From Heliocidaris erythrogramma (taxonomy: Eukaryota > Echinodermata > Echinoidea > Camarodonta > Echinometridae), in assembly GCA_025617745.1 (NCBI GenBank), contig CM046866.1, positions 13,213,725 through 13,277,724 on the forward strand: a DNA stretch of 64,000 nt, in the 5' to 3' direction. Below are positions 10,018 to 63,208 of this stretch, piece after piece; the stretch's first letter is position 1, and every line of letters starts with the position of its first letter. Position numbers and translations under genes: made by a program. The notes under the pieces are model-generated. The model saw nothing but the letters and a program-made list of their open reading frames with translations. It ran no database searches and had not been told where the DNA came from.

Positions 10018-10935
10018 GCATTTTCGGAATTATGAACCATATTTCATTTTCGGAATTATGAACCCTATTTCATTTTCGGAATTATGAACCCTTTTTCATT
10101 TTCGGAATTATGAACCTTATTTCCTTTTCGGAATTATGAACCTTATTTCATTTTCGGAATTATGAACCTTATTCATTTTCTATGAACCTTATTTTTTTCG
10201 GAATTATGAACCTTATTTCATTTTCGGAATTATGAACCTTATTTCATTTCGGAATTATGAACCTTATTTCATTTTCGGAATTATGACCTTATTTCATTTT
10301 CGGAATTATGAACCTTATTTCATTTTCGGAATTATGAACCTTATTTCATTTTCGGGATTATGAACCTTATTTCCTTTTCGGAATTATGAACCTTATTTCC
10401 TTTTCGGAATTATGAACCTTATTTCCTTTTCGAATTATGAACCTTATTTCATTTTCGGAATTATGAACCCTATTTCATTTTCGGAATTATGAACCCTATT
10501 TCATTTTCGGAATTATGAACCTATTTCATTTTCGGATTTATGACCCTATTCATTTTCGGAATTATGAACCCTATTTCATTTTCGGAATTATGAACCCTAT
10601 TTCATTTTCGGAATTATGAACCCTATTTCATTTTCGGAATTATGAACCCTATTTTATTTTCGGAATTATGAACCCTATTTCATTTTCGGAATTAGAACTA
10701 TTTCATTTTGGAATTATGAACCCTATTTCATTTTCGGAATTATGAACCTATTTCATTTCGGAATTATGAACCTATTTCATTTTCGGATTATGAACCTATT
10801 TCGGAATTATGAACCTTATTTCCTTTTCGGAATTACGAACCCTTTCATTTTCGGAATTAAGCTATGGAAATTATGCCATTTCATGGAATTATGAACCCTA
10901 TTTCATTTTCCGAATTTAAGAACCTTCGGAAAACT
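10018..10935. repeat. 26-bp tandem repeat array (about 35 copies)
   Basis: The unit is about TTTCATTTTCGGAATTATGA plus ACCCTA. Variant blocks are segregated: copies reading ACCTTA dominate roughly 10100-10450, and ACCCTA dominates 10450-10740 and the start. Single-base and several-base deletions increase toward the right edge, where it decays into unique sequence. Confidence 0.95.
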
Positions 10936-25457: not shown

Positions 25458-28400
25458 CAAATCCCCATTATTCTGTCAAAATCCATGTCAGATTCGTAAA
25501 TTTTTCCAGATTTGTAGAGAATTGTATACTGCAGAAGGAGAAAGTTTAAAAAAAGGGGGTCCATGTACTCGTTTTTGTGCTAGCAGCAACTTTAGGTGGC
25601 GGGAAAAGTCAAAAACTCGCAAAACTAGTGAAAACTGTGCATGGTTGGCTGGGAACCTGTGTCGGAAGGGGATGGGTTCGTAATAACTCTACTGTACATT
25701 CAAAATCCATGCCAGATTCGTAAATTTTTGCAGATTTGTAGAAAATTATATACTGCAGAAGGAGAAAGTTTAAAAAAGGGGGGTCCATGCACTCGTTTTT
25801 GTGCTAGCAGCGCCCTCAGTTGGCGGAAAAATTCAAAAATTCGCAAAACTAGTGAAAACTGTGCATGGTTGGCTGGGAACCTGTGTCGGAAGGGGATGGG
25901 TTCGTAATAACTCTACTGTACATTCGAAATCCATGCCAGATTCGTAAATTTTTGCAGATTTGTAGAAAATTATATACTGCAGAAGGAGAAAGTTTAAAAA
26001 AGGGGGGTCCATGCACTCGTTTTTGTGCTAGCAGCGCCCTCAGTTGGCGGAAAAATTCAAAAATTCGCAAAACTAGTGAAAACTGTGCATGGTTGGCTGG
26101 GAACCTGTGTCGGAAGGGGATGGGTTCGTAATAACTCTACTGTACATTCAAAATCCATGCCAGATTCGTAAATTTTTGCAGATTTGTAGAAAATTATATA
26201 CTGCAGAAGGAGAAAGTTTTAAAAAAGGGGGTCCATGTACTCGTTTTTGTGCTAGCAGCAACTTTAGGTGGCGGGAAAAGTCAAAAACTCGCAAAACTAG
26301 TGAAAACTGTGCATGGTTGGCTGGGAACCTGTGTCGGAAGGGGATGGGTTCGTAATAACTCTACTGTACATTCAAAATCCATGCCAGATTCGTAAATTTT
26401 TGCAGATTTGTAGAAAATTATATACTGCAGAAGGAGAAAGTTTAAAAAAGGGGGGTCCATGCACTCGTTTTTGTGCTAGCAGCGCCCTCAGTTGGCGGAA
26501 AAATTCAAAAATTCGCAAAACTAGTGAAAACTGTGCATGGTTGGCTGGGAACCTGTGTCGGAAGGGGATGGGTTCGTAATAACTCTACTGTACATTCGAA
26601 ATCCATGCCAGATTCGTAAATTTTTGCAGATTTGTAGAAAATTATATACTGCAGAAGGAGAAAGTTTAAAAAAGGGGGGTCCATGCACTCGTTTTTGTGC
26701 TAGCAGCGCCCTCAGTTGGCGGAAAAAGTCAAAAATTCGCAAAACTAGTGAAAACTGTGCATGGTTGGCTGGGAACCTGTGTCGGAAGGGGATGGGTTCG
26801 TAATAACTCTACTGTACATTCAAAATCCATGCCAGATTCGTAAATTTTTGCAGATTTGTAGAAAATTATATACTGCAGAAGGAGAAAGTTTAAAAAAGGG
26901 GGGTCCATGCACTCGTTTTTGTGCTAGCAGCGCCCTCAGTTGGCGGGAAAAGTCAAAAACTCGCAAAACTAGTGAAAACTGTGCATGGTTGGCTGGGAAC
27001 CAGTGTCGGAAGGGGATGGGTTCGTAATAACTCTACTGTATATTTAAAATCCATGCCAGATTCGTAAATTTTTCCAGATTTGTAGAGAATTGTATACTGC
27101 AGAAGGAGAAAGTTTAAAAAAAGGGGGTCCATGTACTCGTTTTGTGCTAGCAGCAACTTTAGGTGGCGGGAAAAGTCAAAAACTCGCAAAACTAGTGAAA
27201 ACTGTGCATGGTTGGCTGGGAACCTGTGTCGGAAGGGGATGGGTTCGTAATAACTCTACTGTACATTCAAAATCCATGCCAGATTCGTAAATTTTTGCAG
27301 ATTTGTAGAAAATTATATACTGCAGAAGGAGAAAGTTTAAAAAAGGGGGGTCCATGCACTCGTTTTTGTGCTAGCAGCGCCCTCAGTTGGCGGAAAAAAT
27401 TCAAAAATTCGCAAAACTAGTGAAAACTGTGCATGGTTGGCTGGGAACCTGTGTCGGAAGGGGATGGGTTCGTAATAACTCTACTGTACATTCGAAATCC
27501 ATGCCAGATTCGTAAATTTTTGCAGATTTGTAGAAAATTATATACTGCAGAAGGAGAAAGTTTAAAAAAGGGGGGTCCATGCACTCGTTTTTGTGCTAGC
27601 AGCGCCCTCAGTTGGCGGAAAAAGTCAAAAATTCGCAAAACTAGTGAAAACTGTGCATGGTTGGCTGGGAACCTGTGTCGGAAGGGGATGGGTTCGTAAT
27701 AACTCTACTGTACATTCAAAATCCATGCCAGATTCGTAAATTTTTGCAGATTTGTAGAAAATTATATACTGCAGAAGGAGAAAGTTTAAAAAAGGGGGGT
27801 CCATGCACTCGTTTTTGTGCTAGCAGCGCCCTCAGTTGGCGGAAAAAGTCAAAAACTCGCAAAACTAGTGAAAACTGTGCATGGTTGGCTGGGAACCAGT
27901 GTCGGAAGGGGATGGGTTCGTAATAACTCTACTGTATATTTAAAATCCATGCCAGATTCGTAAATTTTTCCAGATTTGTAGAGAATTGTATACTGCAGAA
28001 GGAGAAAGTTTAAAAAAAGGGGGTCCATGCACTCGTTTTTGTGCTAGCAGCAACTTTAGGTGGCGGGAAAAGTCAAAAACTCGCAAAACTAGTGAAAACT
28101 GTGCATGGTTGGCTGGGAACCTGTGTCGGAAGGGGATGGGTTCGTAATAACTCTACTGTACATTCAAAATCCATGCCAGATTCGTAAATTTTTGCAGATT
28201 TGTAGAAAATTATATACTGCAGAAGGAGAAAGTTTTAAAAAAGGGGGTCCATGCACTCGTTTTTGTGCTAGCAGCGCCCTCAGGTGGCGGAAAAGTCAAA
28301 AACTCGCAAAACCAGTGAAAATATTGTGCATGGCTGCCGGCTGGGAACCTGTGTCGGAAGGGGATGGGTTCGAAAAAACTCTGTACATTCAAAATCCATG

Positions 28401-29817: not shown

Positions 29818-29919
29818 ATGTCATAAAGAAATGTGAGAAAATTACAATGCCCCGACCGGGATTCGAACCCGGGACCCTGGATTACATGACCAGTGCTCTA
29901 CCAACTGAGCTATCCGGGC
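29818..29919 (-). mobile_element. tRNA-derived SINE: tRNA-like head plus ~31-bp tail
   Basis: On the minus strand the tRNA-like head (29919-29849) runs straight into a tail reading ATTGTAATTTTCTCACATTT followed by CTTTATGACATG. The same head-3'-half plus tail recurs 150 bp away inside the palindrome at 30006-30103, which shows that head and tail move as one unit. Confidence 0.6.
29849..29919 (-). tRNA. tRNA-like sequence, nominal anticodon TGT, probably the head of a SINE
   Basis: A full 71-base cloverleaf can be drawn: acceptor GCCCGGA with TCGGGGC (one G-G mismatch), D arm GCTC/GAGC, anticodon arm CTGGT/TCCAG, T arm CCGGG-TTCGAAT-CCCGG. The anticodon stem ends in a T-T mismatch and the loop is CATGTAA, so position 33 is A instead of the near-invariant T. 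With the conserved tail directly after its 3' end (ATTGTAATTTTCTCACATTT) and a second partial copy at 30006-30103, it is more likely a tRNA-derived SINE than a working gene. Confidence 0.6.
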
Positions 29920-38281: not shown

Positions 38282-38966
38282 ACAAACACTGTATTCGAAA
38301 AGATATCAAGTCGTTGATTTTTTAGAAAACTTGAGACGAAAAGTCGAAATTGATGCAAACCACAATTTTGAATATTTTCTGTGAAGAGAAATAACATCAA
38401 ATCGGTATACTCAATGATAGGATAGTTTGACTAAAAGACATCATAAAAAATAACTTCTTTTATAACGATTCATAAAATTCCAAAGCGTTTTAAATGTCCA
38501 AATTCGCATTAAAACGATAACTAGAGTTGTCAATTATTAACAAAACAATTATATCATGAAAGAATGAGCCAAGCCATGCAATATATGAATAATCAATTTG
38601 TAGTTGCATTTCGGTTATTACATTCTGAAAGGTTTGGTATCTTTTCGAAATTCAGTGTCAGGGTAAGTATTGTAAATATTCGTTTTCATTTTTATATACA
38701 TTTTCGATAAAATTGTCAAATTAGAATGACTTGCACTATCTGGCTGACAAATGTCATTAGAAAAACAAATGACAAACATTTCCAGATAGATTAAAGTATA
38801 CGAAACAAAATCGCAAATCGAGGGAGATTACAAGAACTGTTTGAAAGTCAAAGGGAAATCAAAAGAAATGAAATGTGTCGAAAAAGTATAAACAATATTA
38901 TTAGATCTAAAGACGTGAATAAAACAAACAAGCAAAACAGAAGTCACAAAATGATTTTCGACAAAT

Positions 38967-39170
38967 TTTAACAAATTACTGGAAAACTTGATGGAGATGG
39001 AAGAATCGGTATTAAAACCGAAGGTAGTCCATCACGGTACAGAGCGGGGTGGGGCTCTGTACATAATAGGAGAATTATGATTTGCGTGTTTATGTCTAAC
39101 CTTGCTAAGTTACAATTTGTGACACTGACAAACAACAATGCATAATTATACCAACAGATTATTACCAACT
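38967..39170. repeat. Local duplication, copy 1 (empty MITE site)
   Basis: Shares CAAATTACTGGA.AACTTG, AAGGTAGTCCATCACGGTAC, a hairpin GTACAGAGC...GCTCTGTAC (39037-39062) and TTACAATTTGTGACA with copy 2. It keeps the uninterrupted target of the hAT MITE near 39137-39150. Confidence 0.8.
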
Positions 39171-39519
39171 TGGACGTACATTAGTATGTATTTCGTCAAA
39201 ACATGTCTCCGTGACGAGAAATGGGCTGCACAAATGTAAAACTATAATCGTTTGGATAGACAAAATATAACCTATTTTCTGGCAGAATACTAGCGACTTT
39301 CGTTTTCAGTATCAAATTATTTGAACGAATCGTGACTGGATCATAATAGACTCTACTCTGGATTTTTTTAAAGAGCAATTGATAAAAAAAATTACTTTGC
39401 AAATATTAGTATTTGATTATGAGTGTCAAATCAAATGGAATCAATATTATTAGACCTAAAACATGAAAAAAAATGCAAAATCATCGAAATCATGAAACAT
39501 TTCCGCATTTTTTTTGGTC

Positions 39520-40035
39520 TCAAATTACTGGATAACTTGGTAAAATTCATAAACATTCGGAGATGGATCGGTAAACTGAAGGTAGTCCATCACGGTACAG
39601 AGCGGGGCGGGGCTCTGTACATAATACGAGCATTATATGATTTTAGTGGTTTTTGTCTTGTTACGTTACAATTTGTGACAAACAACGATGCATGATTACA
39701 GGGGCGGATCCAGGATTTAGTGTAAGGGGGGGGGGGCACATAATGCAGGTTTGTCAACTTTTGGAAATACATTTTTTTCGCCAGACCTCCAAAATTTGCT
39801 CGGGTGGTGGGGGGGGGGGGGGTCCGGTTTTCCTCCATAATTCTCTGACAAGCAAAAAAAAAAGGCCTTCATTTTAAAAGGGGGGGGGGGCACAATCGAG
39901 AAAATGGCGGATCGTCTATGGTCAAAATGCATACTTTTCTTCAAAGGGGGGGGGGGGGGCACGGGCGGAAGTGCCCCCCCCCCCCCGGATCCGCCAATGC
40001 ATGATTATACCACCAGGTTATTACCAACAAGTATG
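39520..40035. repeat. Local duplication, copy 2 (interrupted by hAT MITE)
   Basis: Same order of landmarks as copy 1, with the hairpin at 39595-39620, split by the 301-bp insertion at 39699-39999 and resuming with ATTATACCACCAGGTTATTA. Confidence 0.8.
39699..39999. mobile_element. hAT-type MITE, 301 bp, with exact 8-bp target-site duplication
   Basis: Starts CAGGGGCGGATCCAGGATTT and ends GGATCCGCCAATG, flanked by CATGATTA at 39691-39698 and 40000-40007. The paralogous segment at 39131-39165 shows the uninterrupted site (AATGCATAATTATACCAAC), which confirms insertion. The interior has four poly(G)/poly(C) runs of ten or more. Confidence 0.9.
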
Positions 40036-59200: not shown

Positions 59201-62200
59201 CTTCTAGTGACTCTAAAACTGTGTGTTCAGAGTCTATGCCTGAACTGGAAGAAAGGACAAAAACTTACGAAATTCAGATGCTTGACGATATCTCTTGAGA
59301 GCCCCTCTTCAGCTCGGAGGATGAGTTCAATGACCTTGTAGAAATGGAATGCAGGGATCTCAAAGGCTTCCAGTATCCATGGAAACGTCCTGACCAAATG
59401 AAAATAACAGTCGCATTAGGGTTCTAATGTTTTTGTTGTTACTCATGTTTTCAGGTTCCTATTTTTTGCTTTCTAAATAGAAATAATTCTGAGGAAAATA
59501 AGGCAATTGTTATTCTGTTTCTTATTTTGTTTTTTTACCAAATGTTGCTTCATACAAAGAACTTTAGAAAAGAAAAGATTAGAATCTCCAAATTGGCAGG
59601 AGATTTCCACTGAAAAAGGTGTATGCTTTCCCATAAACATTGGGAATTTTCACACAATTACTTTTGATGGTCGTTCATTTAAATTTCAGATATATGACTA
59701 TACGTTAAAATAGTGGTCTTGGAAAGGAAATGATACCGGTGTTGCCGATCTGCGGACAGAGCGTAAATTCATATACATCCTCAAACAAATTGAAAAATTC
59801 AAAATTTAATATACAAATTTCTCACCTCTGGGAGTTATAGGCGAATATCACAACCTCCACGCAGCAAGCAAACAGTGATCGGTGGAAAAGCTCATGCTCC
59901 AAGAGATGCTGTAATAAAAACGAAGAAATTAAAAATCAGTTTGATGTTACAGTCTTGGAGGCAATGCTATTGTTGCATATCATTTTAGGACTGCCTTCAA
60001 AGAATTTTGAACGCATAATGAAGTTCATAATATTTTTAGCTAACATATAATGCAGCAACTGAATTGAGTCAGGTTTCTGACTGAATGATAAATACACATT
60101 TAGAAATGAAAAATATGACTTCATAAAATAATACTTATTTTTCTGCTGTTTAACAAAAATATAAACCATATACTGAACATACATGGCTTAAATCACTCTA
60201 GAGATTCATCTGACTTGGTTTATATTCATACGAATTTAAAACTAAAATCAGAAATTAAGGAGAAAGTTCACTTAAATTCTAGTCTTCAAAAAATCTTTAA
60301 TTTTAAAGTCTTCCACTATTCACAAAAACTTTAGGGTGGGGTGATCAAAACGAAATTCATCTATATTCCTGCAAATTTGGGGAGGGAGGAGATGTTTTGG
60401 GTGAATTTTGACACTTACGGTGAGATTCTTTAATCTCTTCTTCTCTGCTAACATGATGTTCTCTGACTTGGTTTATATTCATACGAATCAAAAACTAAAA
60501 TCAGAAATTAAGGAGAAAGTTCACTTAAATTCTAGTCTTCAAAAAATCTTTAATTTTAAAGTCTTCCACTATTCACAAAAACTTTAGGGTGGGGTGATCA
60601 AAACGAAATTCATCTATATTCCTGCAAATTTGGGGAGGGAGGAGATGTTTTGGGTGAATTTTGACACTTACGGTGAGATTCTTTAATCTCTTCTTCTCTG
60701 CTAACATGATGTTCTCTGACTTGGTTTATATTCATACGAATCAAAAACTAAAATCAGAAATTAAGGAGAAAGTTCACTTAACCCTATTCCTACTGGGGGG
60801 GGGGGTCAATTTGACCCCCCCCTCAACATTTTGCGCGATAATTCTGCAACGCGCAAAGATTTTGCCCCGCTATTTCATGACTTTTTTCTTTGAAGTCTCC
60901 CGCATATTTTGAGACCAAATTTGCGATGTCCGGGTAGACCGTTCCGAAATTACATAATGTTTTGTACATGCACGTCGGCCCCAAAACGGCTCAAATTTGT
61001 GATTTTGTGTGCAAATCCAATGCAAATTCTGTTTTGGGGTTAAATTGATATTAATTAGATTATTTCAAATTTAAATCATTGAAATTAATTTATTCTAATG
61101 TAAATAAGCTTGAAAAACTGTCCCCAACAAATTTCGGCAAAAAAACAATAGAAAACAAAAGATCGAAAAAACAATAAAATACATAAGAAATTAGCAAAAC
61201 AATAAAAAACATAAGAAATGAATTTTGATTGTGGATTTTTTTGCAAGGAAATTGTTCAATGTGTCTTGAGGAATACTGACACAAAAAATTAGCGTTCTTT
61301 CAGCCTTTTTTATGGAGTTACAGGCAAAAACATAAATTCATGCATAAATTTGCATAATTAATTAATTAAAACTAGAAAATCAATAATTTTCTTAAATTTA
61401 ACTTTATAATCTTGTAGCTTACATCCGGCTCTATGTTCAGGCAAAATTTCGCGGCAATCGCGCGATCAGCGGCCGAGATCTGAAGGGGGGGTCAAATTGA
61501 CCCCCCCCCCAGTAAAAACAGGGGGTCAAATAGCCCAGTTAGAATAGGGTTAAATTCTAGTCTTCAAAAAATCTTTAATTTTAAAGTCTTCCACTATTCA
61601 CAAAAACTTTAGGGTGGGGTGATCAAAACGAAATTCATCTATATTCCTGCAAATTTGGGGAGGGAGGAGATGTTTTGGGTGAATTTTGACACTTACGGTG
61701 AGATTCTTTAATCTCTTCTTCTCTGCTAACATGATGTTCTCGAGGACTTTGTAATAGAGACTCTCAGCCATTTTTAATCTTCTCTTGGCAAAGTCTTGAG
61801 GTGATCCTGAGTTCCCTTCATCATGTGCCTAGAGTGAGGTAAAGGAAAGAAAGATGAACAATATTAATTCATGACAAAGATATGATTTGTAGTATTAATG
61901 GTGAGATGACAATAGTGGCAAGGTGATTTGTTTAATTTGAGATGATGAAAAGAAAGATGGTACATCAATTCAAAACAAACATAGCGATGATCATGAGGTC
62001 ATTCATGAAGGTGATCATTCCTTGGTTTGTGTGGTTGCCAACTTCTGTCAAGATGAGTCATACGGAAATGCTGATTGAAAGCCATGCCAAGCTGCCAAGA
62101 TGCTGCTGCTGATGGTGGTGTTGGTGATGATTATAATGATTAAGATGACAGTCTTATGATAATCAAAATGATATCGAACAGCCATGCAAGTATTCAAACC

Positions 62201-63208
62201 TGCCTATATAAGTCAGTCAAGGGTTCCAGTGCAAGTGGCCTCTGAATACTGGTGATCTATGTAAATATACACACACTTTCAAGGCATCCATTATCATATG
62301 CCTGTATAAGACTACATCAATAAAAGATTCCCCATGTCATAGTGACCCTCCTTTAAGAAATTCATTATTATTCAGCATTCTTCTCTAATTTTTCTCAAAT
62401 CTTTGCTAATTTGCTTCCTGATTCATCTACTTTCAGCTCAAGCTAACTCTCCTTGAAGCTTTATTCCCCCCTTAAAATGCCAGTGCAGGCAGAATATGTC
62501 TTAAATCTTACCTGTGTGTACTTCTGACAGAAGATCTCTCCCATCTCCTTGACCCTACTGGCGATACCCTCCGCAGGATTCTCAGAACACTCCTTGAAGA
62601 TGCCGTCCAAAATTTCGCTGGCCTCCAGCTTCCGGCCGGTCAGCAGGGCCTGGAGTTTGCTGACCGCTTGGGTTGCAGTGGACACTGGGGTGATCTTGGG
62701 GTCCTTCTCCTTGAGGTAGCGCCTGTTGGTCAGTGGTGTGGCCGGACAAAGGTCCTTGGTCTGGGGGAGAAAGGAACAAGAATACATTTCTGCCAACAAC
62801 ACTGAATATTACATGATTTAGCAAAACAGCTTCCTCCTAATAATAATAATGATCATTAAACTGATCTTACTATAAATATTTATGATTGTCTAATAATAGT
62901 ATTAAATAATTCTTGTAAAGTGCATTATGAGATAACATCTTGATGCACTTCCAAAGGTTTGGATATTATTACCCTAGCTTTAGCTGTGGCAAATTAAAAA
63001 GAAAGCAGTTTAAGCAAAGGGGGTGATGGCAGTGTCAGGACTTACCTTTTGGCTGGTTGGTTTCCTCATGGCTTCCTCCGTCTCCCTGAGTGCAGCAGAC
63101 TTTGACGGTGTCCCAATCTCCTCATCAGCGTCCTTATCAAGGAAGATCCTCTCGTCAAAGTCACCGATCGTTAGAACATACTCCTCGTACTTCTTGCATA
63201 TGCTTTTG
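50257..63208 (-). CDS. RBL1: Retinoblastoma-like pocket protein (p107/p130), 14 exons, 5' end outside window
   Basis: Nuclear co-repressor that binds E2F/DP and holds cell-cycle genes silent. Exons in transcript order: 63208-63046, 62760-62512, 61828-61697, 59908-59826, 59389-59269, 58948-58678, 57916-57764, 56967-56791, 54979-54798, 54047-53871, 53299-53131, 52382-52237, 51523-51293, 50418-50257 (stop TAG at 50257-50259). All have AG/GT borders, phases agree, and together they give about 804 residues. The first exon reads KKYEEYVLTIGDFDERIF, just before pocket A. Pocket A lies in exons 2-5, a Ser/Thr/Gly-rich spacer in 6-8 with the cyclin-binding motif SARRRLF (near 57833-57852), and pocket B in 9-13 (RPKRTGS, RRKIWTC, FQEIMRSYR, GDLIKFYNS). 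The N-terminal ~350 residues of the family are missing and should lie beyond 64000. The cyclin motif and long spacer exclude RB1 itself; residues match both p107 and p130, as expected of an invertebrate pre-duplication orthologue. Confidence 0.95.
50822..51215. repeat. GATGGT/GGTGAT microsatellite in the last RBL intron
   Basis: Two blocks (50822-51056 and 51122-51215) of GATGGTGGT-type triplets, separated by ATAATAATAATAA and a short repeat end (CTTATATAGCGC). The minus-strand poly-His frame and plus-strand Asp/Gly frame are artefacts of the triplet repeat. Confidence 0.95.
51776..52204. mobile_element. MITE with GTATTCT-type ends, split by a nested MITE, in an RBL intron
   Basis: Left GCCAGTATTCTAGAAAG, right CTTTCAAGAATATGGGC. 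A related solo copy is at 45933-46222. Shared interior words include GGAGTGCC/GGAGAGCC and ATCAGTGGACCAAGTTAA. The nested copy sits at 52035-52169. Confidence 0.65.
52035..52169. mobile_element. ~135-bp MITE, GTTTCATA family, copy 4, nested in another MITE
   Basis: GGGGGGCATTTCATCAAGTG to TTTTATGAAACAGGGGCCC with the same CTCTCAGCCAATCAGATGCA core. It interrupts the element at 51776-52204. Confidence 0.8.
54526..54645. mobile_element. 120-bp MITE, GGGCCCTCTT family, in an RBL intron
   Basis: Ends CAGGGCCCTCTTGCATAAAA and its complement, giving arms of about 27 bp (AAGTTGC included). The centre TTCAACCAATCACTATCGCA matches the copy at 20159-20315. Confidence 0.85.
55400..55829. mobile_element. 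430-bp TTAA-flanked MITE in an RBL intron
   Basis: Ends AGACCTCAGCCTGACC and its exact complement GGTCAGGCTGAGGTCT form a 16-bp perfect inverted repeat, bordered by TTAA at 55396-55399 and 55830-55833. No transposase frame. It lies between the RBL exons at 56791-56967 and 54798-54979. Confidence 0.85.
56197..56625. repeat. Cluster of short 'rescued palindrome' repeat remnants in an RBL intron
   Basis: Recurring words CATAAAGACCACCTG (three variants, 56216-56332) and GATATAACGAGATTCCTGATA / ATATAAGGAGATTCCTGTTA in the second half, with CAGTGGAAACTTG at one side and GTGTCCACTG at the other. It looks like two adjacent degenerate repeats. A related fragment is at 22425-22580 (TAAAGGCCACCTGCC, GAAAGACCACG). 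Confidence 0.5.
57262..57568 (+). mobile_element. SINE-like element with ATT-repeat tail in an RBL intron
   Basis: The order GGTCCTTTGGCAAGACGTTA, AAATGGGTACCCGGTAGGAT, CTGTAAAGCGCTTAGA and GCGCTATATAAAAGCGG, ending in ATTATTATTATTA, is typical of interspersed SINE or SINE-like repeats in marine invertebrates. A related end (CTTATATAGCGC next to ATAATAATAATAA) occurs at 51046-51083. The subfamily is not identified. Confidence 0.55.
60211..60463 (-). repeat. Copy 1 of 253-bp tandem triplication, with pseudo-exon and donor of RBL exon 3
   Basis: First of three head-to-tail units of period 253 bp. It ends with 45 bp (60419-60463) identical to the 3' end of the RBL exon at 61697-61828, followed on the minus strand by the same donor (GTAAGTG). 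It lacks the 5' part of the exon and its acceptor, so it should be intronic. An intact TTAA sits at 60272-60275. It differs from copy 2 at only about two bases (CGAATTTAAAA versus CGAATCAAAAA). Confidence 0.95.
60464..60716 (-). repeat. Copy 2 of 253-bp tandem triplication
   Basis: Second unit, again carrying the 45-bp exon tail (60672-60716) with donor and an intact TTAA at 60525-60528. It is essentially identical to copy 1 and to the outer parts of copy 3, so the duplication is recent or kept homogeneous. Confidence 0.95.
60717..61741 (-). repeat. Copy 3 of the triplication, including the genuine exon end and interrupted by a TTAA element
   Basis: Third unit, running into the real RBL exon 3 (shared exon tail 61697-61741). 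It is 772 bp longer than its sisters because of the insertion at 60782-61549 plus its duplicated TTAA. Beyond 61741 the genuine exon continues to its acceptor at 61829-61830. Confidence 0.95.
60782..61549. mobile_element. 768-bp TTAA-flanked non-autonomous transposon (piggyBac-like ends)
   Basis: Flanked by TTAA at 60778-60781 and 61550-61553, while the two sister units keep a single TTAA, so target-site duplication is directly visible. Ends are inverted: CCCTATTCCTACTGG on the left matches the complement of the right end, CCCTATTCTAACTGG, at all but two bases. Just inside each end lies a poly(G)/poly(C) palindrome reading GGGGGGTCAATTTGACCCCC. No transposase frame is present. TTAA targets with CCC termini fit the piggyBac superfamily; Kolobok is the alternative. 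Confidence 0.9.

Follow-up and report, generated by a model that had tools for sequence, protein, structure and literature searches.

A probable recent tandem triplication across an RBL exon-intron border, with a piggyBac-like element in one copy, in Heliocidaris erythrogramma

A short tandem duplication that crosses an exon-intron border and carries the parental splice signals has been described in the potato RdRp gene, where the acceptor side was duplicated and the new intron was backed by RNA reads; as support the authors cited 53 genome reads that covered the boundaries, 106 RNA reads and ten positions at which the copies differ (excerpts of PMC4974935). The choice between identical donors downstream of one acceptor has been followed in minigenes designed with two donors, and in five of these, with two strong equal donors, exon definition and 365-nt introns, the upstream donor was exclusive in all constructs; weakening of both donors led to exon skipping in the larger constructs, and only the two smaller sizes retained the upstream preference, while genome-wide the choice of the upstream donor is described as a preference and not as exclusive (excerpts of PMC9225289). 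The same source places the border between intron and exon definition at ~250 nt. For mobile elements, the piggyBac-type MITE hallmark of a 12-19 bp TIR with a CC[C/T]T tip is quoted in an account of the coral CMITEs, elements of ~100 bp that show a TTAA duplication, a short CC[C/T]T TIR, no transposase, and both occupied and empty sites (PMC2872659, in part).

The locus described here lies in a 64-kb stretch of Heliocidaris erythrogramma DNA (64,000 nucleotides of contig CM046866.1, assembly GCA_025617745.1), referred to below as the window. Like the potato RdRp duplication, the RBL array is short and spans the border of an exon and an intron, with splice signals inherited from the parental copy, but it involves the donor side, comprises three copies and holds two differences between copies as opposed to ten (PMC4974935, in part). 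Like the equal-donor minigenes, it has a single acceptor followed by identical donors, and flanking introns that both exceed 250 nt, whereas it is natural, has three donors (spaced 1,025 and 253 nt) and offers a weaker exon context, ACC/guaagu, than the CAG/guaagu of the minigenes (PMC9225289, in part). The inserted element is likened to the coral CMITEs by the hallmarks listed above and not by sequence, and differs from them in its length of 768 bp and in the G- and C-run palindromes near its ends (PMC2872659, in part). A literature search covering titles and abstract openings returned no description of this locus among the papers listed. The array, one copy of which holds a piggyBac-like MITE, is probably a small and recent rearrangement of an already known kind, and the reading given most weight here, with a probability of about 0.75, combines a recent tandem duplication with one piggyBac-like MITE insertion, both nearly neutral, with the extra donors being spliced out along with the intron.

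Twelve exons of the RBL (retinoblastoma-like, here p107-like) gene, which belongs to a family of tumour suppressors, were marked by eye on the minus strand between positions 63208 and 52237, and the gene-level counts cover that span. Joined, they form one open frame of 674 codons without a stop, in which the pocket domains A (Pfam RB_A, residues 78-270, 250.9 bits) and B (RB_B, residues 504-674, 176.5 bits) are recognized, which argues that the exon at 61697-61828 is intact. Compared with solved structures only, the first 276 residues score 222 bits with human p107 (RBL1) chains versus 146 bits with the best RB1 chain, and the name p130 is absent among the 14 matches listed for these residues; by these scores the gene appears closer to p107/p130 than to RB1. 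Because the first in-window exon aligns from position 244 of the RB1 chain 4elj_A, earlier exons should lie outside the window and the exon at 61697-61828 should carry a higher number in the complete gene. The label 'exon 3', given to 61697-61828 in the initial annotation, was therefore dropped, as this exon is the third marked in the window and the count runs from the window edge. This exon is flanked by an upstream intron of 683 nt and a downstream intron of 1,788 nt, and subtraction of two units and the insert from the latter leaves about 510 nt.

Tandem Repeats Finder reports a period of 253 with 2.3 uninterrupted copies at 60209-60781 (99% matches), and the third copy picks up again past the inserted element and stops at 61739, giving three units arranged head-to-tail, the third of them in two pieces (60715-60781 and 61554-61739; Table 1). 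With the element excluded, units 2 and 3 differ at 0 of 253 positions in a base-by-base comparison, and unit 1 differs from either at 2 of 253, two adjacent bases reading TT where the other units have CA, so that two sequence versions of the unit are present in the assembly. At the unit spacing, exact identity extends for up to 291 nt (60238-60528 matching 60491-60781), and across the insert for 192 nt; in 100 mononucleotide shuffles of 59500-62500, which preserve base composition alone, the longest exact repeat was 17 nt. The 253-bp repeats are not a product of chance. The unit junction and the left flank have 2 bp (TC) in common and nothing more, and for this reason the left unit edge can be placed at either 60209 or 60211. 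Each unit holds the last 45 nt of the RBL exon, its donor and ~200 nt of intron. Apart from the exon number, the sequence features proposed in the initial annotation were recovered wherever they were checked by repeat finding and pairwise comparison, including three 253-bp units of this content that differ at about two bases, an acceptor and full exon confined to the outermost unit (the extra units are without any acceptor of the gene), one real donor followed by two identical ones in a row (from 61696, 60671 and 60418), and a 768-bp TTAA element in unit 3 with unoccupied sites in the other two units (at 60272 and 60525).

Table 1. Features of the RBL array and its surroundings (positions in the window)
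Feature	Position	Strand	Basis or remark
Unit 1, 253 bp, final unit along the transcript	60209..60461	-	Repeat finding and base-by-base comparison; deviates from units 2 and 3 at 60236-60237
Unit 2, 253 bp	60462..60714	-	Equals unit 3 once the element is removed
Unit 3, 253 bp, enlarged by the 768-bp element and a second TTAA; adjoins the full exon	60715..61739	-	Repeat finding and comparison
Non-coding element, 768 bp, putative piggyBac-like MITE; 16-bp inverted ends beginning CCCT (14/16 match)	60782..61549		Sequence comparison
TTAA target duplication, left	60778..60781
TTAA target duplication, right	61550..61553
Matching empty TTAA, unit 1	60272..60275
Matching empty TTAA, unit 2	60525..60528
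Full RBL (p107-like) exon, 132 nt, open in one frame, pocket A domain	61697..61828	-	Real donor GTAAGT starts at 61696
Next RBL exon; its acceptor closes the 1,788-nt intron	59826..59908	-	Exon marking
Copy of the exon's last 45 nt (15 codons), donor from 60671	60672..60716	-	Sequence comparison
Copy of the exon's last 45 nt, donor from 60418	60419..60463	-	Sequence comparison
Possible 203-nt pseudo-exon, acceptor-like 60622 plus last extra donor; would bring a stop	60419..60621	-	Splice-site scoring; candidate

Based on the TTAA duplication, the empty-site counterparts, the 16-bp TIR beginning CCCT and the lack of a transposase gene (the longest stop-free stretch in six frames is 69 codons), the element fits the hallmarks of a piggyBac-type MITE (as quoted in PMC2872659). 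The G- and C-run palindromes, one near each end, repeat each other in inverted orientation over 30 nt (97%), and the element folded as single-stranded DNA is more stable than 20 of 20 shuffles (z -7.4). There is no second full copy within the 64-kb window, and chance probably explains two weak partial matches there (28 and 52 bp, E 0.003).

Splice sites were scored with a matrix built from the 12 exons and 12 introns of this gene, the real donor included, and the scores are rough. When left out of their own model, real donors score 4.8-11.7 (7.9 for the donor at 61696) and real acceptors 0.7-12.3. The full-model score of the donor at 61696 is 9.5, a value reached in the gene region by 2 of 556 unused GT sites, both of them the extra donors, which makes these unusually good competitors; they are identical to the real donor over the 9 scored bases and the whole 45-nt tail, encode the same 15 residues, and both lie downstream of it along the transcript, within the 1,788-nt intron. 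The top acceptor-like site inside the units scores 5.8 and occurs once per unit (61647, 60622 and 60369), and since the gene region has 14 unused AGs (out of 658) that do at least as well, those three counted in, such sites are ordinary. The duplication sets the site at 60622 upstream of the full donor at 60418. Other candidates were set aside on their scores, including an acceptor formed at the unit junction, which would open a stop-free, in-frame exon of 42 nt and is thought unlikely at -0.7, and a T-rich site ending at 60748 that looks like a good acceptor by eye and scores -1.0. Aligned with human p107, the exon end itself (61691-61705) falls two residues short; reading 6 nt beyond the real donor would add V-S, and a donor at that place was rejected with a score of -3.2.

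Six non-normal products were modelled across exon 61697-61828 and the next two exons, and five of these meet a premature stop and, as modelled, most likely would go to decay. The stop falls in the extra sequence for four of them (use of donor 60671, use of donor 60418, full intron retention, and the pseudo-exon at 60419-60621), while the fifth, whose 76-nt exon runs from the T-rich site at 60748 to donor 60671, would not meet a stop until the next exons. The sixth, with the 42-nt exon from the unit junction to donor 60671, keeps the frame, repeats 14 residues, contains no stop and could be translated.

Under the reading preferred here, a 253-bp stretch over the exon-intron border would have been duplicated in tandem and then raised to three copies, and the identity of units 2 and 3 points to a recent date for this amplification or for a gene conversion that followed it. 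The 2-bp identity at the junction would fit a mechanism that needs minimal homology or none, either slippage or end-joining, and an unequal exchange between copies could account for the second amplification step. The array itself is probably real, its number of units being less certain. An assembly artefact, in which misjoined reads, or one allele carrying the element and one lacking it, were placed head to tail and created the triplication or its copy number, is unlikely: the element is all that distinguishes units 2 and 3, as would be expected of an occupied and an empty allele, but unit 1 has its private 2-base change, three units exceed two alleles, the unit edges fall at a 2-bp junction inside exon and intron and away from any gap, and the window contains no N. 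A non-autonomous piggyBac-like element would then have entered the TTAA of the copy adjoining the full exon. The initial annotation had dated this insertion after the duplication by the empty sites, and insertion last does stand as the simplest and most parsimonious order, with one event needed, but an empty TTAA is no proof of it, because piggyBac transposases usually excise precisely and without a footprint (PMC2872659 and PMC4625184, each in part), although imprecise excisions leaving both TTAAs are also known (PMC2872659), and because occupied and empty alleles, as reported in coral for a TTAA MITE (PMC2872659), can recombine. The same picture would thus arise if the element had been present before or during the amplification and units 1 and 2 had lost it by precise excision, or if occupied and empty alleles had recombined, a history that is improbable in that it requires two losses or an exchange where a single insertion is enough, and that concerns the order only, being compatible with the splicing view of the preferred reading. 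That a break left by the excised element directly caused the duplication is likewise thought unlikely, since the TTAA is separated from the unit junction by ~60 bp in one direction (63 with the edge at 60715) and by 186 bp in the other.

With regard to the choice of donor, the introns of 683 and 1,788 nt and the residual ~510 nt all exceed the ~250-nt border for exon definition. In the preferred reading the splicing machinery would reach the intact exon with its own acceptor and donor ahead of the copies, the spliceosome would match this acceptor, across the 132-nt exon, to the closest donor, and removal of the 1,788-nt intron would take both identical downstream donors with it, as the published minigenes suggest; the gene would still work because the intact exon comes first. 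Since the equal-donor rule under exon definition has the upstream, real donor win, the extra donors, the 'decoys' of the earlier description, which is upheld as to their identity and position, are probably silent (PMC9225289, in part). Low-level or regulated splicing at the extra donors, producing an extended exon or the 203-nt pseudo-exon and, through premature-stop mRNAs, less RBL output, seems quite doubtful. It would draw on their match to the real donor over the scored bases and the exon tail, on the position of an acceptor-like site within the range of real ones ahead of a second full donor, and on the stops in five of the six modelled products; set against these are the commonness of acceptor-like sites that good, the units' own included, the upstream advantage of strong equal donors under exon definition (PMC9225289, in part), and the element, which stretches the exons extended to donors 60671 and 60418 to 1,157 and 1,410 nt, respectively (132 + 1,025 or 1,278). 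It is very improbable that the array acts as a working poison switch, in which the extra donors, together with the acceptor-like sites now lying upstream of them, would divert a share of RBL transcripts to stop-bearing forms or, by the 42-nt junction exon, to a 14-residue repeat in pocket A, and in which the element, by moving the donors 772 bp off, would have partly disarmed the switch.

If the units are real, the array provides a natural test of competition between identical donors, in which 45 nt of exon and ~200 nt of intron are the same, bar the element and two bases, and in which mainly position differs among the three donors. It also illustrates that an empty TTAA alone is no clock for piggyBac-type insertions, and it would gain interest if RNA revealed use of the extra donors.

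Elsewhere in the window, tandem repeats are found at 25476-28400 (a 224-bp unit repeated ~13 times with 95% matches) and at 10019-10926 (~36 copies of a 26-bp unit). A direct repeat pair (38890-39148 and 39439-39698) with 71% identity overall and a nearly identical ~50-bp core, at which no Rfam family scored above threshold, is perhaps another mobile or structured element. Further, an uninterrupted 613-codon open frame at 42500-44341 matches Glyco_transf_61, and a tRNA-Thr (TGT) is located at 29848-29919 on the minus strand.
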